Shown here: positions 2,508 through 64,000 of the stretch, one piece after another
How the letters are laid out: each line of letters begins with the position of its first letter
How positions within the stretch are numbered: position 1 is the stretch's first letter
Program-made: the position numbers and the translations under genes
The notes under the pieces: generated by a model
What the model saw: the letters and a program-made list of their open reading frames with translations, nothing else
What the model was told of the DNA's origin: nothing
The model's database searches: none
NCBI RefSeq assembly: GCF_004322855.1
Contig: NZ_CP036402.1
Location: forward strand, 3,472,001-3,536,000
DNA: 64,000 bases
Direction: 5' to 3'
Source: Egibacter rhizosphaerae
GTDB lineage: Bacteria; Actinomycetota; Nitriliruptoria; Euzebyales; Egibacteraceae

Positions 2508-3479
2508 GTGACTGGCGAGCAGCGGGAGGAGCAGCAGCCGGGCGGGGAGACGGCGACCCCGTCCGACGGTGCCGCGGAGTCCCCCGAGGCGCCTGACGAG
2601 ACCGTCGGCGGGGCGACGGTGCTGGGGCGGATCACCGCCTCCAGCTTCGTTGCCCCCGCCGCGGGCCTCATGGGGGTCTTCCTGATCTTCCCGGCCCTGT
2701 GGACGCTGTACCTCGGGCTGACCGACGTCCGGCTCACGGGGGTGGCCGCGGCCGACCCGCAGTTCGTCGGGATCGAGAACTACCTCACCGCGTTGTCGGA
2801 CTCGCTGTTCTACAACGCCCTGATCGTCACCCTGCTGTTCGTCCTGGGCTCGGCCGTCATCGGCCAGACCGTCCTCGGCTTCCTCCTCGCCTGGGCCCTG
2901 CGGGGCTGGCAGAGCCCGGTCCGCCGCGGACTCGAGGTCCTGGTGATCCTCGCCTGGATCATGCCCGACTCGGTGGTGGCCTTCCTGTGGATCGCCTACC
3001 TGGACGGCGACAGCGGCACCCTGAACCAACTGCTGCCGTTCGTCGGCGAGACCGAGTGGCTCCTGGAGCACGCCCTGCCCGCCATCATCGTGTTCAACGT
3101 GTGGCGCGGTACGGCCTTCGCCATGCTGTTGTTCGGCGCCGCGCTGAACGCGGTCCCGCCGTCGCACCTCGAGACGGCGAGGCTGGCCGGCGCCTCGGCG
3201 GTCCAGCAGCTGCGCGACGTCGTGCTGCCGACCATCCGCGGCCACATCCTCACCGCCCTGCTGCTCGTCAGCCTCTGGACGTTCAACCTCTTCACGCCGT
3301 ACCTGCTGACCCAGGGCGGGCCGAACTTCGAGACCGAGGTGCTGCCGATCTACGTCTTCCGCGAGGCGTTCAGCCACGGACGCCTCGGGTACGGGGCCGC
3401 CATCTCCGCGATCATGATCCTGATCAACCTGGTCATCGCGCTCTTCTACATCCACGTCCTGCGGGAGCGCACCTCATGA
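2508..3479 (+). CDS. Carbohydrate ABC transporter permease 1 (MalF-type)
   Basis: 323 residues, GTG start six bases after the binding-protein stop. An acidic cytoplasmic N-terminus (about 45 residues) precedes six hydrophobic segments. The cytoplasmic EAA loop that docks to the ATPase is seen near residue 222 as ETARLAGASAVQQLRDVVLP. The family forms a heterodimeric channel with a second permease and moves sugars into the cell. Its stop overlaps the start of the next permease by four bases (ATGA), pointing to translational coupling and a 1:1 partner. Identity as a binding-protein-dependent permease is clear; substrate is inferred only from context. Confidence 0.93.
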   Translation: MTGEQREEQQPGGETATPSDGAAESPEAPDETVGGATVLGRITASSFVAPAAGLMGVFLIFPALWTLYLGLTDVRLTGVAAADPQFVGIENYLTALSDSLFYNALIVTLLFVLGSAVIGQTVLGFLLAWALRGWQSPVRRGLEVLVILAWIMPDSVVAFLWIAYLDGDSGTLNQLLPFVGETEWLLEHALPAIIVFNVWRGTAFAMLLFGAALNAVPPSHLETARLAGASAVQQLRDVVLPTIRGHILTALLLVSLWTFNLFTPYLLTQGGPNFETEVLPIYVFREAFSHGRLGYGAAISAIMILINLVIALFYIHVLRERTS

Positions 3480-29433: not shown

Positions 29434-30342
29434 TCACCCCCGCTGCAGGTAGCCGGGCCGGACCTGCTCGCCGGCGACCGCGAGTTCGGCGACCTCCCGC
29501 TCGGACAACTCGATCGTCGCGGCGGCACAGTTCTCCTCGAGGTGCGCCACCTGACTCGTGCCCGGGATCGGCAACACCACCGGGCTGTGGTGCAGCAGCC
29601 ACGAGAGCGCGACTTGTGCCGGAGTGGCGTCGTGGCGCCGGGCGACCTCGTCCAGCGCACCCCCCGGCTGCGCGAGGTCGCCGGTGGCGACCGGGAACCA
29701 CGGGATGAAGCCGATCCCCGCGGCCTCGCACACCTCGAGCACCGGCTCGTGCTCACGGTCGGCGAGGTTGTAGCGGTTCTGCACGCTGGCGACGTCGACG
29801 TGTTCGCGGGCGGCCGCGAGCTGCTCGGCGTCGACCTCCGAGAGGCCGATGTGGCGAATCTTGCCCGCCTCCCGGAGCTGGTGCAGTGCCCCGAGCTGCT
29901 CGGCCATCGGCACGTCGCGGTCGATCCGGTGCAGCTGGAAGAGGTCGATCGTGTCGACCCCGAGGCGGCGCAGGCTGAGCTCGCACTGCTGGACGAGATA
30001 GGCAGGACGCCCGTTGGGCACCCACTGGTCCGGTCCCGTGCGACACAGCCCCGCCTTGGTGGCGATCACGAGCTCCTCGGGATAGGGGTGCAACGCCTCG
30101 GCGATCAGTCGCTCGCTCACCTCGGGGCCGTAGCTGTCGGCGGTGTCGATGAGGGTGACGCCGAGCTCCACGGCGCGTCGCAACACCTGCCGCGCCTGCT
30201 CCGGGTCGCCGGGTTCGCCCCAGATGCCCTTCCCGGTGAGGCGCATGGCGCCGAAGCCGAGGCGGCGGACCGGCTGCTCACCGGCCAGTTCGAACACGCC
30301 GCTGCGGGCCACGGGCTCGGCCGAGCGAAGGTCGTTCGTCAA
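29434..30342 (-). CDS. Aldo/keto reductase
   Basis: 302 residues from a TTG at 30342 with AAGGAG five bases upstream; the in-frame ATG further upstream lies in tandem-repeat DNA. The TIM-barrel motifs are LGFGAMRLTG, VTLIDTADSYGPEVSE (catalytic Asp and Tyr), VIATKAGL (catalytic Lys), DLFQLHRID (catalytic His) and IRHIGLSEV, then SVQNRYNLADRE and LPIPGTSQVAHLEEN for NADPH binding. A YghZ/YajO-like soluble oxidoreductase; substrate unknown. Divergent from the OB-fold gene. Confidence 0.92.
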   Translation of the reverse strand: MTNDLRSAEPVARSGVFELAGEQPVRRLGFGAMRLTGKGIWGEPGDPEQARQVLRRAVELGVTLIDTADSYGPEVSERLIAEALHPYPEELVIATKAGLCRTGPDQWVPNGRPAYLVQQCELSLRRLGVDTIDLFQLHRIDRDVPMAEQLGALHQLREAGKIRHIGLSEVDAEQLAAAREHVDVASVQNRYNLADREHEPVLEVCEAAGIGFIPWFPVATGDLAQPGGALDEVARRHDATPAQVALSWLLHHSPVVLPIPGTSQVAHLEENCAAATIELSEREVAELAVAGEQVRPGYLQRG

Positions 30343-30400
30343 AGCCGCTCCTTGGGACGGGTGCTCCGATGGTGCTCTCCGCGCGGCGAGCCTGCCCGCC

Positions 30401-30500
30401 ACCGTCGCGCCTCACCCGCCACCGTCGCGCCTCGCCCGCCACCGTCGCGCCTCGCCCGCCACCGTCGCGCCTCGCCCGCCACCGTCGCGCCTCGCCCGCC
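30401..30500. repeat. 20-bp minisatellite, five copies
   Basis: The unit ACCGTCGCGCCTCGCCCGCC repeats exactly every 20 bases from 30401; only the first copy differs, by one base. It fills the gap between the divergent aldo/keto reductase and OB-fold genes. Confidence 0.95.
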
Positions 30501-31029: not shown

Positions 31030-31124
31030 GCAGGCGTCGCGCGGACCTCGACTGAGCAGGCGTCGCGCGGAGTCCCTCGCTCAGGGCTGGTGGAGTCCCT
31101 CGCTCAGGGCTGGAGGAGTCCCTG
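31018..31124. repeat. Tandem duplications spanning both convergent stop codons
   Basis: A 26-bp unit is perfect at 31018-31043 and 31044-31069; copy 1 contains the stop of the OB-fold gene. A 23-bp unit follows at 31070-31092, 31093-31115 and in part at 31116-31124; copy 2 contains the stop of the GDPD gene. There is no other sequence between the two genes. Confidence 0.9.
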
Positions 31125-32033
31125 GTGCAGACGCGGGTCGCCACGCTCGGACAGGACCGCGTTCAGGACGTCCGGCACGTCGGTGATGATGCCGTCGGCG
31201 CCCTCGTCGAGCAGCCGGTGCATGCTGCCCTCGTCGTTGATCGGCCACACGTGGACGTGCATTCCGAGCGCGTGCGCCGCCGTGAGGAAGCGCGGGGTCG
31301 GCACGTAGCGCCCACTCGCGTGTTCGGGCACCTGGGCGGCCACCCCGCGCGTCGGTGTCCACCGCCCGAGACCGAGGCGCGACAGGTGCCAGAGGGCGCG
31401 CATCTCGCGGGGGGAGAGGCTGGTGGGAAGCTCCGGAGCGAGGCGCCGCAGTGTCGCGAGCAGCTGGTCCGAGAACGAGGCCGCGATGACGCGGTGGGCG
31501 GCCCCGTGCGTGTGGACGCTGTCCGCCACAGCGGCCGCGAGCCGCTCACCGCCGGCCTTGAGTTCCAGGACCCAGAAGGTGTCGGTGGCTGTGAGGACCT
31601 CCCCGAGTGTGGGGATCGCGATCCCTTGGCCCGCGAAGGGACGGCTGCCGTCGGGTGCGACGAAGCCCGCGCCGGCGTCGAGCCGTCGCAACTCGGCCAG
31701 CGTTCGGGAGTCGACGGGCCCCGTGCCATCCGTCGTGCGATCGACCGAGGGATCGTGGTGGACGACGACGTGCCCGTCGGCGGTCAACCGCAGGTCCAGT
31801 TCGAGTCCGTCCACTCCCAGGTCCAGCGCGTGGGTGAAGGCGGCGAGCGTGTTCTCGGGCCGCGCCGCGCTCGCACCGCGGTGCGCGATGCGGGTGGGGC
31901 GTTGGGTGACCAGGGTCCGGGGCGGCACGACCGGGGTGGGCCTGGCGAGCCATGCGGCGCCGGCGGTGGCACCCGCCGCCACCAGCGCCCCTCGGGTCGC
32001 CAACCGCCTGCGTCGCTGGTCTCGTCGGCTCAT
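31104..32033 (-). CDS. Glycerophosphodiester phosphodiesterase, membrane-anchored or secreted
   Basis: 309 residues from ATG 32033, which overlaps the preceding stop (ATGA). A basic twin-arginine-like start (MSRRDQRRRRLATRG) and a hydrophobic stretch suggest export. Catalytic motifs are RIAHRGASAARPENT (His, Arg, Glu), LELDLRLTADGHVVVHHDP (Glu, Asp, His) and WVLELKAG (Glu, Lys). The family hydrolyses glycerophosphodiesters to glycerol 3-phosphate and an alcohol, with calcium or magnesium. Third gene of an RDD/racemase-fold/GDPD operon, so an envelope role is likely. Confidence 0.9.
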   Translation of the reverse strand: MSRRDQRRRRLATRGALVAAGATAGAAWLARPTPVVPPRTLVTQRPTRIAHRGASAARPENTLAAFTHALDLGVDGLELDLRLTADGHVVVHHDPSVDRTTDGTGPVDSRTLAELRRLDAGAGFVAPDGSRPFAGQGIAIPTLGEVLTATDTFWVLELKAGGERLAAAVADSVHTHGAAHRVIAASFSDQLLATLRRLAPELPTSLSPREMRALWHLSRLGLGRWTPTRGVAAQVPEHASGRYVPTPRFLTAAHALGMHVHVWPINDEGSMHRLLDEGADGIITDVPDVLNAVLSERGDPRLHQGLLQP

Positions 32034-33439
32034 TCGGACCACGGTGCCCCCCAGCGAGTGAACGTCGGCCAGATGTCCTCGACGGTGCCCTCACGGACGC
32101 CGATCACCGACCCGAACCGTCCCACCGCGGCGTCGGTGTCCTCGGGCCACATCAGAACGTAGTCACCGCGTTCCAGTCGCCCGGCGGGTGCGGTGATCGC
32201 GCTCGTGTGCTCCCCGCGACCTCCGTGCAGGCGGTCGTCGTCGAGGCCTTCGGGCCAGAGCAGCTCGGGCTGTTCGCCGCGGGCGTCCGGCCAGCTGCCG
32301 CCGCGCAGGGTGAGTTGCTCGCGGTCGCTGCCGGGCATGGAGAAGTCCGTCAGCGGCACGCGCGGGCTCGCGCCCACCACCCCGAGGACCGGCGCCGCGA
32401 CGACGAGCGCGACCACCAGCTCGTCGTCGTCGAACCCCTCGCGCAACCACCGGGAGTAGACGACCGCCGAGCCGGGATGGATCTCGTCGAGCTCGTCGCC
32501 CTCGGCCCAGTTGCGGTAGTTCGCCGAGCCGGGGCCTCCGACCACGAGCTCGTCGGGGTCGATGGCGCCACCGGCGGCCTCCACCAGGAGCCTCCGGAGC
32601 TCGCGCAGACGCGCCCGGGCGTCGCGGGCGATACCGGTCCGCACCGGGCTCGCGGCGGTGACCCGGGCGTGGGTGTCGCGAGCGCGCAACGCGGTGCAGC
32701 GGACCACCTCACCGGCATCGCGCAGTCTCCCGGCGGCGGCGACGACCGATTGGGGCTCGCGGAACCCCCCTCTCCCGGCTCCGGAGTCGAGCTCCAGGCA
32801 CAGCTCGACGGGTTCGTCGGTGCCGGCCTCGTGGGCGAGGTCGATGGTCGTGTCGAGGGTCGCGAGGTCGCCGACCGAGAGCCGTACCCGCTGGTTGGCG
32901 CGCGTCGGTGGCGTGGTCAGGTAGCGCGCGAGTTCACGGTCCGTCGGTGCCTCGGCGACGATCAGGTCGGCCTCCTCGGGCGCCGCTTCCAGCGTGGGGG
33001 CGACGTCCCGCAAACGGCGGACCAGGCCGCGCGGCTCGGGCAGCGCGTCGAGCACACGAGCGGCGGGTTGCGGGCCACCGAGGACGTCGAGGCGCGGACG
33101 CAACGTCCAGCCGTGGGTCTCGGCGAACCGCAGCAGCGCATCGAGGTTGTGCTCCACGCCACCGAGGTCGATCAGGCAGCAGGGCTCGCCCTCGCCGGCC
33201 TGCCCTGCCAGTCGGGCGAGCTCGTCCAGCACGGTCGGGGCCTCGGCGCGAACGCGCGCTGCGGCGGGATCGGACAGTCGAGCGCGGTTCCGCTCGGGGT
33301 CGACGAGGGGGGTCGCACCGGCGGTGAGGGCGGATCCGGCGACTGCGGCGGCCCCCGCCAGGAACCGCCGGCGCGGGACGGGGCCGGTCGCGTCGCGGTC
33401 GGTCGCGTCGCGTGCCGGCACGTCGCTCTCGCCCCTCAC
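32030..33439 (-). CDS. Tat-exported alanine-racemase-fold protein lacking any lysine (probable pseudoenzyme)
   Basis: 469 residues from a GTG at 33439 that overlaps the RDD stop (GTGA). RRRFLAGAAAVAGSALTAG at about residues 23-41 is a twin-arginine-type signal. The rest follows the plan of the alanine-racemase N-terminal-domain proteins annotated amino acid deaminase/aldolase: LIDLGGVEHNLDALL, VRLSVGDLATLD, VELCLELDSGAGRGGF, a central VVGGPGSANY, and a C-terminal beta domain with GDYVLMWPED. The PLP lysine expected soon after the first strand is absent (LRPRLDVLGG stands there), and I find no Lys anywhere in the protein, so it cannot form the PLP aldimine. Possible roles: ligand binding or a PLP-independent activity. 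Confidence 0.75.
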   Translation of the reverse strand: MRGESDVPARDATDRDATGPVPRRRFLAGAAAVAGSALTAGATPLVDPERNRARLSDPAAARVRAEAPTVLDELARLAGQAGEGEPCCLIDLGGVEHNLDALLRFAETHGWTLRPRLDVLGGPQPAARVLDALPEPRGLVRRLRDVAPTLEAAPEEADLIVAEAPTDRELARYLTTPPTRANQRVRLSVGDLATLDTTIDLAHEAGTDEPVELCLELDSGAGRGGFREPQSVVAAAGRLRDAGEVVRCTALRARDTHARVTAASPVRTGIARDARARLRELRRLLVEAAGGAIDPDELVVGGPGSANYRNWAEGDELDEIHPGSAVVYSRWLREGFDDDELVVALVVAAPVLGVVGASPRVPLTDFSMPGSDREQLTLRGGSWPDARGEQPELLWPEGLDDDRLHGGRGEHTSAITAPAGRLERGDYVLMWPEDTDAAVGRFGSVIGVREGTVEDIWPTFTRWGAPWSE

Positions 33440-34149
33440 CGGCGCACCACGATCGTGCCGGCTAGGCGGTCGTGCAGCCCACGGCCCTGTGGATGCAGGA
33501 GCACAGCGCCGTGCACGAGCACCAGCACCCCCACGGCGACCCAAGGACCGAAGGGCCACAACGCCAGTCCCCCCACGCGAGCGAACGCGCGAGCCGCCCC
33601 GCGCCGGGGTCCCGGTCGATGGCCGTTGCCGAGAACCACCGCGATGCCCACGAGCCAACGGCCCGGGCTGCGACCCCACGCTTCCATGCCGACCAGCACG
33701 ACCAGGGGCAAGGTCACGAGCCCGAGCGTCGCCACAGCGATGCCGACGGCCGACAGCGCGTCGACGCCCCAGGGTCCGCGAGCCTCGACGAGCAGCGCGA
33801 ACAGGCCCGCGCCGGGCAGTGCCGCGACGAGAGCGACCAGCGCGAGGTCGATCGCGGCGGCGACCAGACGCGCGGCGAGCCACGCCGGCTGGCCGGGAAT
33901 CGGCGCCGGGGCGGGGTCCGCCCCCTCTCGACGCTGGGTGGCGTCGGACGGGGCCTGCGGAGCCTCGGCCCCGAGCGCGCGAGCCGTGTCGGCCGGGGCT
34001 TCCTCCTCGGCGGGCGCTGACGGGCCACCGGAAGCGGCGGGATCCCCTGCGCCCGCCTGGTCCCCCGGCGGCTGGGCGCCCGCCGGCTCATGGGTCACCT
34101 CCGGCCCGCTCGGGGGAAGATCGCGCCCGGACGCCTCGCTGCTTGCCAT
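33436..34149 (-). CDS. RDD family membrane protein
   Basis: 237 residues from ATG 34149 with a GGAG site upstream. The first 90 residues are disordered, rich in Ala, Pro, Glu and Gly. Then AWLAARLVAAAIDLALVAL gives the Arg and Asp of the RDD domain, two further hydrophobic helices follow, and GRGLHDRLAGTIVV is the conserved closing motif with the second Asp. RDD proteins include sodium/proton exchangers, but most lack a known function. First gene of the operon with the racemase-fold and GDPD genes; divergent from DUF418. Confidence 0.85.
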   Translation of the reverse strand: MASSEASGRDLPPSGPEVTHEPAGAQPPGDQAGAGDPAASGGPSAPAEEEAPADTARALGAEAPQAPSDATQRREGADPAPAPIPGQPAWLAARLVAAAIDLALVALVAALPGAGLFALLVEARGPWGVDALSAVGIAVATLGLVTLPLVVLVGMEAWGRSPGRWLVGIAVVLGNGHRPGPRRGAARAFARVGGLALWPFGPWVAVGVLVLVHGAVLLHPQGRGLHDRLAGTIVVRR

Positions 34150-34305
34150 TCCCGCTCCCATCGCGCCGCGGCTGCCCGTGGGTGTAGCGGCTCGTGGGAA
34201 TCGCTGCAAGCAGCCGGCCTCCACGTCGTAGGCTCGCAGGCCCGCCACGCTGGCGGTGCGCACGTCCGACGCTCCATCGACCCGGTACGAGTCCGAGGGA
34301 ACGCC

Positions 34306-35778
34306 ATGACCGATCCCGACGAGGCCCCGCGGCCCACCGAGCCACGTCCCCCCGGGTCCACCTCCCCGGGCTCGTCTGCCGGGTCCACCTCCCCGGGCTC
34401 GTCTGCCGGGCCCACCTCCCCGGGCTCGTCTGCCGGGCCCACCTCCCCAGGCTCGTCTGCCGGGCCCACCTCCCCAGGCTCGTCTGCCGGGCCCACCTCC
34501 CCAGGCTCGTCTGCCGGGCCCACCTCCCCAGGCTCGTCTGCCGGGCCCACCTCCCCAGGCTCGTCTGCCGGGCCCACCTCCCCAGGGTCGCGGGTGGCCG
34601 CCATCGACGTCGCCCGCGGCGTCGCGATCCTCGGCATCTTCGCGGTCAACATCCTGCTGTTCGCGGGTGTCGGCGCCTACCTGGCCCCCGAGACCCTCGT
34701 CGACCAGGTCGCTCGCGGCGTCGTCGGCGCCTTCTTCGAGACGAAGTTCGTCACCCAGTTCGCCCTGCTCTTCGGGCTCGGACTCGCCCTGCAGCGCTCC
34801 CGAGGCTACGCGGTCCTGCTCCGGCGCCTGGTGGTCCTGGCGGTGATCGGGGGGCTACACGCGACGCTGATCTGGTCCGGCGACATCCTGCTCTTCTACG
34901 CGGTGCTCGGGCTGCTCCTCATCCCGTTCCTCGACCGCGCGCCGAGGACCCTCGTGACGTGGGCCACCGTCCTGATCAGCGCGAGCGCGGTCGTCTTCCT
35001 GATCGCCGGGGGCTTGTTCATGGTCGGCGAGGAGGTGGCGGGCCAGGATCCCGAGGTCGCCGCGGAGCTCGAGGCCGCCGAGGCCGAGGTGGCCGAACTC
35101 GCCGCTGAGGCGGAGGCCGCGTACACATCCCGGAACTACGCGGAGATCCTCGCGTTCCGCGTCGGCACCGAGCTCCCGCTCTTCGCCGCGAGCCACCTCT
35201 CCCTGGTGCCCATGACGCTCGCCATGGCCCAGCTGGGGATCGCGGCCGTCAACGGCGGCGTCGTCGCACACCTCGCCCATCACGGGCACCTCCTCCGTCG
35301 CTGGACGCGGCGGGGGCTCGCGATCGGTCTGCCGGTGAACCTGCTCGCCGGAGCGCTCGTGGCCACCGATCCCGCGATCAGCACCGCGAGCGGCATCGCT
35401 GCGTTCGCTCTGATGACCGCCGGTGCGCCGTTCCTGGCACTGGGGTACGCGTCCATCGCCGCCCGCGTGGGGCTCGCGAGGCCGGGGAGTGGCCCGGTGC
35501 GAGCGATGGAGGCCGTCGGACGCACCGCGCTGTCCAGCTACTTGCTCCAGAGCCTCGTCGCGACCGGGGTGTTCTACGGCTTCGCGCTGTACGCACAGCT
35601 TCCGCTCGTGGCTGCGCTCGGGTTCGTCCCGGTCATGTGGGCGGTCAACCTCGCCGCCGCCACCTGGTGGGTGCGGCGTTTCCGGTTCGGCCCGGTCGAG
35701 GCGCTGTGGCGGGCGGGAACGTACGGGCGCTGGCCGTCGCCGATGCGCGTCGACGCGGGCGCGGATCCTGGGCGTTGA
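34306..35778 (+). CDS. DUF418 multi-pass membrane protein with a repetitive N-terminus
   Basis: 490 residues from ATG 34306. Residues 18-95 are a nine-residue repeat, [SP]TSPGSSAG, in eight full copies and a partial one. The DUF418 core opens with AAIDVARGVAILGIFAVNILLF, continues with FFETKFVTQFALLFGLGLAL and about ten helices, and closes with LSSYLLQSLVATGVFYGF and FRFGPVEALWRAGTYGRW, the C-terminal DUF418 signature. This acyltransferase-3-like family is common in actinobacteria; its chemistry is not established. A long acidic helical segment (AAELEAAEAEVAELAAEAEA) sits in an outer loop. A paralogue lies at 47515. Confidence 0.9.
   Translation: MTDPDEAPRPTEPRPPGSTSPGSSAGSTSPGSSAGPTSPGSSAGPTSPGSSAGPTSPGSSAGPTSPGSSAGPTSPGSSAGPTSPGSSAGPTSPGSRVAAIDVARGVAILGIFAVNILLFAGVGAYLAPETLVDQVARGVVGAFFETKFVTQFALLFGLGLALQRSRGYAVLLRRLVVLAVIGGLHATLIWSGDILLFYAVLGLLLIPFLDRAPRTLVTWATVLISASAVVFLIAGGLFMVGEEVAGQDPEVAAELEAAEAEVAELAAEAEAAYTSRNYAEILAFRVGTELPLFAASHLSLVPMTLAMAQLGIAAVNGGVVAHLAHHGHLLRRWTRRGLAIGLPVNLLAGALVATDPAISTASGIAAFALMTAGAPFLALGYASIAARVGLARPGSGPVRAMEAVGRTALSSYLLQSLVATGVFYGFALYAQLPLVAALGFVPVMWAVNLAAATWWVRRFRFGPVEALWRAGTYGRWPSPMRVDAGADPGR
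34357..34590. repeat. 27-bp coding minisatellite, 8.7 copies
   Basis: Encodes the nine-residue repeat at the start of the DUF418 protein. The first copies carry CCCGGGC where the later ones carry CCCAGGC, so recent amplification of one variant is visible. Confidence 0.95.
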
Positions 35779-50350: not shown

Positions 50351-52960
50351 CTACGGTCGCTCGAAGTGCATCCAGTCGTCGAGGCTGCGCCAGCGGCCCC
50401 CCCACTCCCAGCCGCGGGCATCGAACGCCTCCACGACCGCGTCGCCCTCCACGATCATCCCCGGCCGCTCGTTGCCGCGGTCCAGATACGCCTCACCGGC
50501 GGGCGGGAGCACCTCGCCGTCACGCCGATACGGGTTCTGCACGGGATTGAGGTCGATCGCCGTGCCGAAGCTGTGCTCCGACCACGTGTTGCTGCCGGTG
50601 ATCGGACGGCAGTTGAAGGCCGACGAATTGTTCGCCTCCATCGAGGCGTCGTCGTCGCCGCCGTAGGCGGCGATCGGTTCCATCCGCTCGATCGGGAAGC
50701 GCGCGGCGGCGAGGTCGCTCATGATGTCGGCGACCTCCCCCGCGATGTCGTCAGCGACGACGAGCTCGCCCGTCCGCAACTGGTGCGCGAAGTCCCAGTG
50801 GGGGGTCTCGACGATCGCGAGATCGGGCGGATCGACCGGACAGCCCTGCTCCCAGCTCGTGCCGTTCATCGCGTCGCGCTCGTCGTCGTTCAGTGCACGG
50901 GTCGTGGCCTCGGGCTCCGCGCCGAGGCGGATGATCCGGTCGTCGCCCGCCCGCGGGTCGCCGCGCCCGTCGGTGTTGTTCGTCAGGACCCACAGGCTCC
51001 CGTCGGGCGCGGTCACGACCTCGCGCAGCCGGCCGCGCTCGCTCGTCAGCAGCTCCTCGCTGGCGGTGACCTCGTCGCCGTCGACCTCGAGGCGCCACAG
51101 CCGCTCGCCGCGCAGTGCCGCCACGAGCACGTCGCCCTCCCACTGCGGGATCGCCCCGTCGACCAGCACCTCCAGCCCCGACCACGACGCGACCGGGGGC
51201 TGGCGCACGAACACCGGGTCCTCGAGCTCGGGGTCGCCGGTGACGCCGGTCTCGTCCGGCCAGCCGTAGTTGCCGCCGGCGGTGATGACGTTCACCTCGT
51301 CGTCGACATCGGGACCGAACTCCGAGGCCCACAGGCGACCCTCGGCGTCCCAGTCGAGGCCCTGGCTGTTGCGGATCCCGGTGGCGTAGACCGGGCTGGG
51401 CTCGCCGCCATCCCACGTGGGGTTGTCAGACGGCACGCTCCCGTCCGGTTCGAGCCGCAGGATCGCCCCCGCGGGATCCCGGGGATCCTGGCTGCGCTGG
51501 CCGTCGCCGGCGTCCCCGGTGGCGACCCACAGGTAGCCGTCGGGACCGAACGCGATCCGCCCGCCGTTGTGGATGCTCCCGTGGGGGATGCCGTCGAAGA
51601 CGACCTCCTCGGCCTCCCCGGGGTCGGACAGGCGGGTGACGCGGTTCTCGTTCGCCCGCGAGTAGTAGGCGTAGAGATCCCCGGTCCCGGGCCGCTCGGC
51701 GAGGCCGAGCAGCCCCCCCTCCCCGGCGTTGTTCACGTCGAACCGGTGCACCTCCTGCGTCCCGCCCTCGGCGTCGAGCTCGAGGACCCGGCCGCTGTCG
51801 CGCTCGGTCACCAGCACGTCGCCGTTCTCGCGGAAGACCACGTCCCACGGGGCGTCGAGGCCGGTGGCGATGTCGGTCTCGGTGATCTCGACCGGGTCCT
51901 CGGGCGGCGACGGCCGCGGGTCCCCGGCGAACGCTGCGGCGAGCTCCTCGGCGACGAAGGCGCTCACCGCGGCCTCCCCACCGACGATGCGCGCGGCCTC
52001 GAGATCGACGTCGTCGCGCAGCGCCGCGTCGAGCGCATCCGTCAGCCGCTCGGCAGGGACGAGGACGAGCGGCGCGTCCAGCCGAGCCGCGAGCGGCCCG
52101 GCGGACAAGCCGTCGGCGAACGTCGCCCCGCTGGCGGCGAGGGCCTCGGTATCGGCGCCCTCGTCGAGCGCCCGCGTCACCGCCGCGATGCTCGTCCCGT
52201 AGCGGTCGTCGCCCGCCAGGCGGTCCGTCTCGTCCACCAGCGCCGCCACGTCCTCGGCCACCGCGGCGTCGAGCGCGGCCTCGCCTCCGAGCAGGGTCGC
52301 CCGGTCCGGCGCGAGCTCGTCGAGCGCGTCGGCGGTGCTCTGCGGGAGCGCGCCGGGGAGCGCGAGCAGGACCGGCCGCTGCCCGTCGAGAAGCGCGCCG
52401 GCGGCCAGCGCGTCCGCGAAGTCCTCGCCGGACACGACGAGGGCCTCCTCCACGTCGGTCCCCTCGGCGGCGGCTGCGGCGACCTCGGCGGCGGTCTCGT
52501 AGCGGTCTCGTCCGCTCAGCCGATCGACGTCGTCGACGAGGCCCTCGAGCTCGCCGGCGACCGCCTCGTCGACGGCGGCGGGACCGCCCACCAGAAGGAC
52601 CTCCTCGACCTCGAGATCGTCGAGCGCGTCGGCGGTGGCGCCGGGCAGCTCGTCCGATTCGGTGAGCAGGAGCGGGGCGTCGCGGCTCGCGGCGAGTGCC
52701 CCGGCGGTGAGCGCGTCGGGGAAGTCGCGGCCCGTGGCCACCACCGCCGTGGCCGCGGTCTCCCAGCCGTCGCCGGCGACCTCGGCGGCCGTCTCGAAGC
52801 GATCGGCGCCCGCCACCCGCGGGACGGTCGGGTCCGCTCCGTCGTGTTCCGCGGCCCCGGCCGAGCCGGTGGCCAGCACCAGCCCCACGAGCGCCAGCGC
52901 GCCGACCGCCGCGGCCGCGGCCGCGAGTATCCGGGTCGAGCCGAGCGGATGGGCGGACAT
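50351..52960 (-). CDS. CWB2 / PQQ-type sugar dehydrogenase / M15 peptidase triple fusion
   Basis: 869 residues, ATG 52960 with GAGGAGG five bases upstream. Residues 1-36 are a signal peptide. About 48-345 hold three CWB2 repeats (RVAGADRFETAAEVA, RLSGRDRYETAAEVA, RLAGDDRYGTSIAAV). About 352-680 form a glucose/sorbosone dehydrogenase beta-propeller: GLDAPWDVVFRENGDVLVTE, NNAGEGGLLGLAERPGTGDL, HNGGRIAFGPDGYLWVATGD, GNYGWPDETG. About 690-869 are an M15 (D,D-carboxypeptidase-like) domain with zinc motif SEHSFGTAIDLN and closing DWMHFERP. So a wall-bound protein may join sugar oxidation or sugar binding with peptide cleavage. It has no lysine. I know of no precedent for this order, but I could not search. 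Confidence 0.88.
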   Translation of the reverse strand: MSAHPLGSTRILAAAAAAVGALALVGLVLATGSAGAAEHDGADPTVPRVAGADRFETAAEVAGDGWETAATAVVATGRDFPDALTAGALAASRDAPLLLTESDELPGATADALDDLEVEEVLLVGGPAAVDEAVAGELEGLVDDVDRLSGRDRYETAAEVAAAAAEGTDVEEALVVSGEDFADALAAGALLDGQRPVLLALPGALPQSTADALDELAPDRATLLGGEAALDAAVAEDVAALVDETDRLAGDDRYGTSIAAVTRALDEGADTEALAASGATFADGLSAGPLAARLDAPLVLVPAERLTDALDAALRDDVDLEAARIVGGEAAVSAFVAEELAAAFAGDPRPSPPEDPVEITETDIATGLDAPWDVVFRENGDVLVTERDSGRVLELDAEGGTQEVHRFDVNNAGEGGLLGLAERPGTGDLYAYYSRANENRVTRLSDPGEAEEVVFDGIPHGSIHNGGRIAFGPDGYLWVATGDAGDGQRSQDPRDPAGAILRLEPDGSVPSDNPTWDGGEPSPVYATGIRNSQGLDWDAEGRLWASEFGPDVDDEVNVITAGGNYGWPDETGVTGDPELEDPVFVRQPPVASWSGLEVLVDGAIPQWEGDVLVAALRGERLWRLEVDGDEVTASEELLTSERGRLREVVTAPDGSLWVLTNNTDGRGDPRAGDDRIIRLGAEPEATTRALNDDERDAMNGTSWEQGCPVDPPDLAIVETPHWDFAHQLRTGELVVADDIAGEVADIMSDLAAARFPIERMEPIAAYGGDDDASMEANNSSAFNCRPITGSNTWSEHSFGTAIDLNPVQNPYRRDGEVLPPAGEAYLDRGNERPGMIVEGDAVVEAFDARGWEWGGRWRSLDDWMHFERP

Positions 52961-61941: not shown

Positions 61942-64000
61942 CTACGGCTGCAGGCGGAGGCGGTCGACGGTCGCGTCCTCGATGCGCGCCTCGGACCAGG
62001 GCACGTCGAACTGCTCGCCCTCGAGCCACGCATCGATGGTGTCGCTGTAGTGCCGGTGGCCCGGATGGCCCGACTGGCCCGTCGTGGCCTGTCGCGTCGA
62101 CTGGTCGAGGTCGCCGAGGTCGACCACCATCCGCATGGAGGGCAGCGCCCGCACCTCGTACCCCTCGTCCGCCGCCCACGAGGTCGCGTTGACGATGCCC
62201 GTCCCGCCGTCGACGGGGTAGGGACCGCGGTTGAACAGGGCCTCGACCGGTGCGATCCCCGACTCGCCGAGCGTGCCCTCGACGAACGTGACGGTGTGGA
62301 GGTCGCCCCAGCGCCAATCGTCGGGGTCGGTGCCGAGCTCGCGTCGCAGCTCGAACCACGCGGTGGCGAGCGCGTTCTCGAGGGCGTCGTCGCGGGTCTC
62401 GGTGACCGGGGTGTCCGGGTGGTCCCACCACGGGCTCCCCGGGTCCTCGAGGGCGCGGCGCACGACCTCGAACCACCGAGAGTTGCCCTCGGGCTGGTAC
62501 GCCTCCGGCAGGTACGCGCCGAACGTCTGCGAGAGCAGCGCCCGCCACGTCGCCGCGTACGCCGCGGCGCCCGCGCTGTCCGCGTGCGCGCGCCCGTCCC
62601 ACTCGTCGAGCAGGTCCCCGAGCTCGGCCACCGCAGGCGCGTCCGAGTCCAGCGCGAGCAGATGCGGCACGAGGAAGTCCGCTGACCCGTCCCTCGTGTC
62701 GAGCTGGTCGGCGGCGGCCGCGGCGACGTCGATGTCGCCGCCGGCGTCGACGCGTCGCTGGAGCATCTCGATGATCCGGCCGGCCCGGTACCCGTGCTCG
62801 TCGTCGACCGAGAGGAACCACGGGTAGTCCTCCGGTGGCACGGGATTGTTCGCGGTGACGATCCATCCTCGGTCCGGATCGGCTTCTCGCGGCAGCTCGT
62901 CGAAGGGGATGGAGCCCTGCCACTGATACGCGTCGTCCCAGCCGGGTGCGGGCACCGTCCCGTCGCCGGCGCCGCGAACGGGGATCGTGCCGGGCGCCTG
63001 GTACGCGATCGTGCCGGCGGTGTCGGCGTAGACGAGGTTCTGTGCCGGCACCTCGAAGCGGGCGGCGGCCTCGCGGAACTCCTCCAGGTCGCGGGCCCGG
63101 TTCATCGCCGGTAGGGCCTCGAAGACCGTGGTCGGCTCCAGGGCCGTCCAGCGCAACGAGATCTCGTGCACCGGGTCCGCGATGCGCCCCCCGCCGGTTC
63201 CGGTCGGTGCTTCGCCATCGGTGCGCTCGGCCAGGGGCGACGGCTCACCCGCGCGCGCGGCGGTACCGTCGACGTCGAGCTCGTCGAGCGGCTCGAAGGC
63301 GTCCGAGATGATCGGCCCGTTGCGCGTGACCCGGATCTCGAGGGTCTCCACGGAGCCGTCGCTCGCGTGCAGCTCCTCGGTGAGGACCTCGGCCTCGGCC
63401 GGGCCCTCCCCGGTCTCGTAGCGGGTCGGGTCGTCGGGGTCCACGCGCTCGACGAACAGGTCCTGCACGTCGGGGTCGAGGTTGGTGAAGCCCCAGGCCA
63501 CCGAATCGTTGTGGCCGATCACCACCCCGGGGACGCCGGGGAACGAGAACCCGGTCACGTCGTCCGCGCAGGCCTCGGTCCGCTCGCGGCAACGCAAGCC
63601 GACCTCGTACCAGATCGCGGGGCTCTGGACGCCGATGTGCGGATCGTTCGCGAGCAGCGGGGCGCCCGAGGAGGTGTGCTCCCCGCCGACGACCCAGGCG
63701 TTCGAGCCGATCCCGTCGGTGACCGGTCCGAGGGCACGCTCGCCGGCCTCCAGCGCTGCGGCCGCCCTGGCGAGCGCGTCGGCGACGCCCGGGCCCTCGG
63801 ACGTCTCGGACGCGAGGTTCGAGGACCCGGGGGTCGCCGGACCCGTGTGGCTCCCCTCGTCGTCGGGGTCGGACGGAACGATCCGCGGGACGTCCTCGGG
63901 GTACTCGGGGAACAGTTCGGCGATCTCGTCGTCGTCCAGCGTCCGGGCGAGCACGGCGCGCTCGAGCTCCTCCTCGAGGTTCCCCCCGAGCTCCCACGCC
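61942..64000 (-). CDS. Penicillin acylase family protein (N-terminus beyond window)
   Basis: At least 686 residues, 5' truncated at the window edge; the frame stays open to base 64000 with AWELGGNLEEELERAVLART, which fits the alpha subunit. After a disordered linker, SNAWVVGGEHTSSGAPLLAN marks the beta subunit: the Ser following DGIG would be the N-terminal nucleophile made by self-cleavage. ANDPHIGVQSPAIWYEVGL, SFPGVPGVVIGHNDSVAWGF and VTRNGPIISDAF are family motifs. Acts on acylated compounds outside the membrane (penicillin G, acyl-homoserine lactones or others). No Lys in the visible part. Confidence 0.92.
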   Translation of the reverse strand, partial: AWELGGNLEEELERAVLARTLDDDEIAELFPEYPEDVPRIVPSDPDDEGSHTGPATPGSSNLASETSEGPGVADALARAAAALEAGERALGPVTDGIGSNAWVVGGEHTSSGAPLLANDPHIGVQSPAIWYEVGLRCRERTEACADDVTGFSFPGVPGVVIGHNDSVAWGFTNLDPDVQDLFVERVDPDDPTRYETGEGPAEAEVLTEELHASDGSVETLEIRVTRNGPIISDAFEPLDELDVDGTAARAGEPSPLAERTDGEAPTGTGGGRIADPVHEISLRWTALEPTTVFEALPAMNRARDLEEFREAAARFEVPAQNLVYADTAGTIAYQAPGTIPVRGAGDGTVPAPGWDDAYQWQGSIPFDELPREADPDRGWIVTANNPVPPEDYPWFLSVDDEHGYRAGRIIEMLQRRVDAGGDIDVAAAAADQLDTRDGSADFLVPHLLALDSDAPAVAELGDLLDEWDGRAHADSAGAAAYAATWRALLSQTFGAYLPEAYQPEGNSRWFEVVRRALEDPGSPWWDHPDTPVTETRDDALENALATAWFELRRELGTDPDDWRWGDLHTVTFVEGTLGESGIAPVEALFNRGPYPVDGGTGIVNATSWAADEGYEVRALPSMRMVVDLGDLDQSTRQATTGQSGHPGHRHYSDTIDAWLEGEQFDVPWSEARIEDATVDRLRLQP

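Follow-up and report, generated by a model that had tools for sequence, protein, structure and literature searches.

The window analysed here is a 64,000-nucleotide stretch of the Egibacter rhizosphaerae genome (NZ_CP036402.1, positions 3,472,001 to 3,536,000). Within it, three overlapping genes on the reverse strand encode an RDD-family membrane protein, a predicted exported protein of the alanine-racemase fold and a glycerophosphodiester phosphodiesterase (GDPD):

33436..34263, reverse strand: upstream gene, coupled translationally to the next; encodes an RDD-family membrane protein (coordinates of the longest ORF, with a likely start near 34161)
32030..33439, reverse strand: SphD-like alanine-racemase-fold protein of 469 amino acids, predicted to be exported by a Tat-type route, with a GTG start and no lysine
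33305..33379, reverse strand: Tat-like signal of that protein, residues 21–45, VPRRRFLAGAAAVAGSALTAGATPL, read by eye
31104..32042, reverse strand: GDPD-family glycerophosphodiester phosphodiesterase with a basic/hydrophobic N-terminus, coupled downstream

The coupled operon described in the original prediction is borne out by both gene overlaps: the GTG start of the 469-aa protein overlaps the end of the RDD gene at 33436 (GTGA), and its 3′ end overlaps the GDPD start at 32042. Scans of the operon for promoters, terminators and inverted repeats gave nothing usable. One RDD protein has Na+(Li+,K+)/H+ antiporter activity, according to PMC5996927. By eye, the N-terminus of the 469-aa protein carries a twin-arginine leader, PVPRRRFLAG followed by a hydrophobic stretch, in agreement with the Tat-type signal first proposed; Tat export itself is a prediction, and the protein is probably exported; its ortholog has a similar leader (below). 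Two tandem repeats lie outside the operon. One, of 27 bp (8.9 copies, 98%; window 34352..34590), codes for PTSPGSSAG-type repeats at the N-terminal end of the DUF418 membrane protein encoded at 34303..35778 (forward strand); the other, of 20 bp (5.6 copies, 96%; window 30390..30500), spans the start region of an aldo/keto reductase gene (29434..30402, reverse strand) and the gap upstream of it.

Translation of 33439..32030 on the reverse strand contains no lysine and reads LRPRLDVLGG around the expected cofactor site, confirming both the lysine-free composition and the RLDV reported earlier at the position of the pyridoxal phosphate (PLP) lysine. We do not regard the composition as an anomaly in itself. 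A background sample of 464 kb was taken from the 4.64-Mb genome, which is high in GC; it comprised the window and twenty further stretches of 20 kb. In crude gene calls on this sample, lysine made up 1.12% of residues and 6 of 102 ORFs of at least 400 amino acids had none. The chance of finding no lysine in 469 residues is 0.5% under a flat binomial and about 8% with gene-specific rates, and the ortholog has two lysines in all. Because about 5% of long ORFs here are lysine-free, the absence is mildly unusual at most; from the alignments, the true anomaly is the lost cofactor lysine. The window also encodes a lysine-free exported protein of 869 amino acids (50351..52960, reverse strand), with CWB2 repeats, a glucose/sorbosone dehydrogenase domain and a D-Ala-D-Ala carboxypeptidase (M15_4) domain, and a lysine-free penicillin-amidase family protein of 670 amino acids as called (61942..63954, reverse strand). 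The latter matches profile positions 153–674 of 675, so its start lies further upstream or the gene is truncated.

Several lines of evidence agree on the alanine-racemase fold that had been proposed. The 469-aa protein matches Pfam Ala_racemase_N above the cut-off (27.6 versus 24.1 bits) and, by sequence, the structures of D-3-hydroxyaspartate aldolase and D-threonine aldolase. Its AlphaFold model is partial, with barrel blocks mostly at pLDDT 60–89, low values elsewhere and means of 43 and 51. Searched with this partial model, Foldseek returned a D-threonine aldolase as the best PDB match and VIA-align placed alanine racemases and D-threonine aldolases at the top (Z about 14–16.6, rmsd about 3–4 over about 190–216 residues). 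The protein thus combines the TIM-barrel fold and the Ala_racemase_N homology of the alanine-racemase fold (fold type III); the prediction recovers the barrel, but its confidence is too low for pocket geometry. A comparison with PHROGs gave a weak match only (E 0.064).

In a maximum-likelihood tree of 29 sequences, the 469-aa protein grouped with its ortholog (support 100/100). The sister group of this pair was formed by five SphD-like proteins (91/82); the amino-acid deaminase/aldolase and D-threonine-aldolase/BhcC clades lay elsewhere. The SphD-like set comprises SphD of the Pseudomonas aeruginosa sphBCD operon and relatives in Yoonia, Eleftheria, Ruegeria and a same-order actinobacterium. 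Because the inner branches are long, the sister relation is moderate evidence, and by sequence the protein probably belongs to the SphD-like/D-threonine-aldolase branch.

For the mapping we used the residue roles published for D-threonine aldolase, in which, according to PMC4401734, Lys59 forms the Schiff base, Tyr187 stacks on the PLP ring, Gln81 and Arg157 contact the ring hydroxyl, Thr233, Gly251 and Ser252 bind the phosphate, and His347 and Asp349 bind the metal. Projected onto the 469-aa protein, all on the reverse strand, these and related positions read as follows:

33086..33088, reverse strand: Asp118 (GAC) at the PLP-lysine position; Lys111 (AAG) in the ortholog, Lys59 in A. xylosoxidans D-threonine aldolase
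33014..33019, reverse strand: Arg141-Arg142 for Phe-His of the ortholog (Phe-His/Asn in SphD-like proteins; Gln81 region of D-threonine aldolase), the exact register varying between alignments
32870..32872, reverse strand: Gly190 for the Asp of 50/50 homologues
32771..32773, reverse strand: Arg223, kept, equivalent to Arg157 of D-threonine aldolase
32678..32680, reverse strand: Arg254 for the PLP ring-stacking Tyr, Tyr187 of D-threonine aldolase
32525..32527, reverse strand: Ser305, kept, the phosphate-contact position in GGPGS, equivalent to Thr233 of D-threonine aldolase
32210..32212, reverse strand: Glu410 for the Asn of SphD-like proteins
32132..32140, reverse strand: Asp434-Thr-Asp436 at the D-threonine-aldolase metal ligands His347/Asp349; Gln and Glu in SphD-like proteins

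We aligned the 469-aa protein with 50 other members of the superfamily (51 proteins). This set took in eight of the nine distant matches from the phylum search with the ortholog (L012 and seven others), the ninth (L017) being left out as an overlapping ABC-transporter frame. The alignment leaves out three weak matches (L003–L005) and the remaining PF01168 proteins of the genome itself, and the counts exclude repeats of proteins already included (L022, L049–L051, L073, L080 and L084). All 50 of the others keep the PLP lysine, which is absent only from the 469-aa protein; every one also has Asp at the position of Gly190, and the ring-stacking position is Tyr, His or Phe in 41, 8 and 1 of them, against Arg in the 469-aa protein, where an Asn has also become Gly301. 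The phosphate contacts Ser305, Gly323 and Ser324 are kept, as is Arg223. Since every homologue examined has the lysine, we reject a lysine-less family and regard the change as a lineage-specific loss. The original prediction had named lysine-bearing homologues together with a single-strain loss as the outcome that would count against it: such homologues are what we find, but this is not a bare point loss, as eight other positions invariant among the SphD-like proteins and the ortholog are lost as well. A protein without any lysine can form no internal PLP aldimine, and on this sequence evidence the 469-aa protein almost certainly does not carry out PLP Schiff-base catalysis. To our knowledge, this lysine is all but universal in PLP enzymes of the alanine-racemase fold.

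The ortholog is encoded in a metagenome-assembled genome, Nitriliruptoraceae bacterium CSSed165cm_309 (SLLJ01000478.1:4869-6239; L021/L002), in whose name we take ‘CSSed’ to denote soda-lake sediment, and is 51–53% identical to the 469-aa protein over the mature part. It has a Tat-like leader, LSRRALLTGAAALGVG, at the same place, and an RDD gene lies directly upstream with an overlapping start, the two RDD proteins being 43% identical over 100 amino acids; the GDPD gene, in contrast, neighbours only the 469-aa protein. The ortholog retains the PLP lysine (LKSLQS), the Phe-His pair, Asp183, Tyr247, Asn292, Asn401 and Gln425, all of which are changed in the 469-aa protein; LRPSLKSLQS in the one aligns with LRPRLDVLGG in the other. 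The same metagenomic contig encodes a serpin-family protein close by (L021 6794..8062, reverse strand).

This ortholog was the one found (E 2.5e-128, 51%) when 66 genomes of the class were searched with the 469-aa protein as the sole query; the 20 further genomes of its own family examined there yielded no close homologue. No other close relative was detected in 296 genomes of the phylum with the 469-aa protein as query or in 396 with the ortholog; two further scans of genome contigs added none, the second matching the ortholog only, and searching plasmid proteins with the ortholog as query yielded nothing at 1e-3. The comparison rests on one ortholog, with no same-genus genome. Nor has the 469-aa protein a close paralogue in its own genome, where the protein itself retrieved a single match up to E 10 and a family profile a single match up to E 1e-6. 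We took the three other PF01168 matches to be Alr, a YggS-type protein and LysA, two from reading the proteins (L007, L009) and one from score only (L006). An active partner from the same subfamily was considered and rejected, the genome encoding none.

Taken together, these sequence comparisons lead us to favour, with some reserve, a lineage-specific, Tat-exported pseudoenzyme that descends from a PLP-dependent SphD-like/D-threonine-aldolase-like enzyme and binds rather than catalyses. The main rival is a recently inactivated gene in decay, in which the lineage came to do without the enzyme, the active site was the first part to erode, and the frame stays open only through the rarity of stops at 74% GC and the coupled operon position. 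What separates the two is where the changes fall. The ortholog and the five SphD-like proteins agree fully at 42 columns, and at nine of these the 469-aa protein has changed (K118D, S119V, L160I, G162A, D190G, Y254R, N301G, N410E and Q434D), whereas in the mirror test the ortholog has lost none of the 33 columns identical in the 469-aa protein and the same five (Fisher p 0.004). These counts come from the 29-row alignment; a 16-row alignment, in which the register at residues 139–141 moves and one column changes, gives 12:0, and we use the lower figure. At the remaining sites there is no excess: against each SphD-like outgroup, changes in the 469-aa protein and the ortholog number 22:23, 18:23, 18:16, 17:21 and 18:18. 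Uniform decay predicts about 23 to 30 changes in the 469-aa protein, against 17 to 22 observed (P 0.002 to 0.08, over five overlapping, non-independent comparisons and one ortholog). Erosion concentrated at positions that the enzyme needs is as expected if catalysis was abandoned and the fold retained. The lysine codon, moreover, differs at two bases (AAG versus GAC), and over the 397 residues aligned pairwise with the ortholog there are only two gap positions, which amount to one in-frame two-residue indel with no frameshift.

Decay draws its support from elsewhere. The maximum-likelihood end branch of the 469-aa protein is four-fold longer than that of the ortholog (0.89 versus 0.22), in line with relaxed constraint, a difference that we do not accept as proof of decay because relative-rate counts do not bear it out (31:23 with L012, p 0.34, a low-power count with one ortholog) but leave standing as counter-evidence. 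With stops rare at 74% GC, the open frame is weak evidence of function: in a neutral simulation run to the divergence at which about 19% of residues have changed, the chance of meeting no stop was about 21%. That a close homologue is missing from the 20 further genomes of the family that were examined indicates that the function is dispensable in the family. On balance we consider decay unlikely, and it is reasonably probable, from the distribution of substitutions, that the fold is still under selection and a function retained. With respect to the definition of a pseudoenzyme, catalytic residues are lost, and selection on the fold is supported through one ortholog only.

A re-invented, non-PLP catalyst, in which Asp118, Arg141/142, Arg254, Glu410 and Asp434/Asp436 would form a pocket for a metal or a phosphate-bearing substrate, would account for replacements that are mostly charged and sit where the cofactor was once contacted. 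The metal ligands of D-threonine aldolase, His347/Asp349 (PMC4401734), line up with Asp434/Asp436, and a glycerophosphodiester hydrolase is coupled downstream. We nevertheless think it very unlikely: no homologue has the same residue set, so there is no conservation behind a new site, the alignment at residues 141–142 is uncertain by one column, and model confidence is too low for geometry. An annotation or assembly artefact (a wrong frame, a compensated frameshift or base errors) is close to refuted and scarcely credible. Several long ORFs overlap the gene on the other strand, as is usual at such GC, but homology to the lysine-bearing ortholog runs full length in the same frame without a frameshift, codon-position GC is coding-like (0.80/0.56/0.89, against 0.79/0.55/0.90 in the ortholog), and the genome is a single contig.

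For the pseudoenzyme that we favour, the ancestor would have been a PLP-dependent enzyme of the SphD-like/D-threonine-aldolase-like kind. The sequence shows that, besides the PLP lysine, the Tyr that stacks on the ring, the Asp present in all 50 other aligned homologues and the Asn/Gln pocket residues of the family are gone, with Arg, Asp, Glu and Gly as the main replacements, and that barrel and phosphate-loop positions are kept. The protein may still fold in the cytoplasm before export and then act at the cell envelope by binding a ligand or a partner, in company with the operon's RDD membrane protein. The phosphate cup and the added arginines would suit a phosphate-bearing ligand; that a small molecule rather than a protein partner is bound is a tentative suggestion, which we hold at somewhat below even. 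A more specific proposal, which we rate as improbable, is an envelope receptor in which the former PLP pocket, with its phosphate cup (Ser305, Gly323, Ser324 and Arg223) and gained arginines and acids, might capture a phosphate-bearing polar ligand, such as the glycerophosphodiesters or glycerol phosphate handled by GDPD, and pass a signal or the ligand to the RDD protein; against this tie, GDPD is not a conserved neighbour, and only RDD is common to the ortholog. The same holds for the envelope role that the original prediction suggested from both neighbours, amino-acid or lipid-headgroup binding, which is likewise a tentative proposal. Overall, what the original prediction observed is confirmed, and its interpretation partly supported. 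If the pseudoenzyme reading is true, the ortholog from the same class, to all appearances an intact enzyme, and the 469-aa protein would form a clean before-and-after pair for studying the conversion of a cofactor pocket into a binding site; RDD membrane proteins, which are little characterised, would gain a possible extracellular partner.

Antizyme inhibitors share the alanine-racemase-type barrel with alanine racemase, and the fold's pseudoenzymes known to us come mainly from eukaryotic polyamine control. PMC2748086 describes the antizyme inhibitors AZIN1/ADC as homologues of a PLP enzyme, ornithine decarboxylase, that lack its activity and are used in regulation. They are eukaryotic, are not exported and belong to another branch of the fold, and serve here as a precedent for the 469-aa protein. 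Among the papers listed, a literature search showed no report of a Tat-linked D-threonine aldolase, an alanine-racemase-fold pseudoenzyme, an inactive fold-type-III homologue, or a Tat or pseudoenzyme case in Nitriliruptor. With D-threonine aldolase and 3-hydroxy-D-aspartate aldolase (4v15, 6qkb) the 469-aa protein has in common the fold and the equivalents of Arg157 and Thr233, whereas Lys59, Tyr187 and His347, in the roles given by PMC4401734, have no equivalents, their places being taken by Asp118, Arg254 and Asp434/Asp436.

With the SphD-like proteins it shares GGxW (residues 380–383) and Pro432. All five of these proteins and the ortholog keep the lysine in xKSLxx, where the 469-aa protein has Asp118; of the SphD-like signature it keeps GGxW, with Asn (N401 in the ortholog) changed to Glu and Gln (Q425) to Asp, whereas the ortholog keeps all. 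An SphC-type oxidase gene lies beside the SphD-like gene in three of four plasmid records, in contrast to the RDD and GDPD neighbours here, and no SphC-family (PF04030) gene was found in this genome or in that of the ortholog. We therefore do not assume the SphD reaction, and find no support for a sphingosine pathway in this organism. SphC and SphD have been proposed to oxidise and then cleave sphingosine (PMC3900636); a later study found sphD dispensable for growth with sphingosine (PMC11893366), so SphD's own reaction is a proposal.

In the P. aeruginosa plasmid record (L023), the gene order is cytochrome c, lactone-oxidase-type SphC, DSD1-family enzyme, transporter and sphR, and we call the DSD1-family protein SphD because this order matches the sphBCD region in PMC3900636. 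Tat-type leaders are found in the Eleftheria SphD-like protein and, upstream of the annotated start, in that of P. aeruginosa. There, an in-frame Tat-like leader, NRRKFMFAGLGAGALLAGAAAW, lies around 2905..2995 of the record, and the annotated start therefore looks too short.
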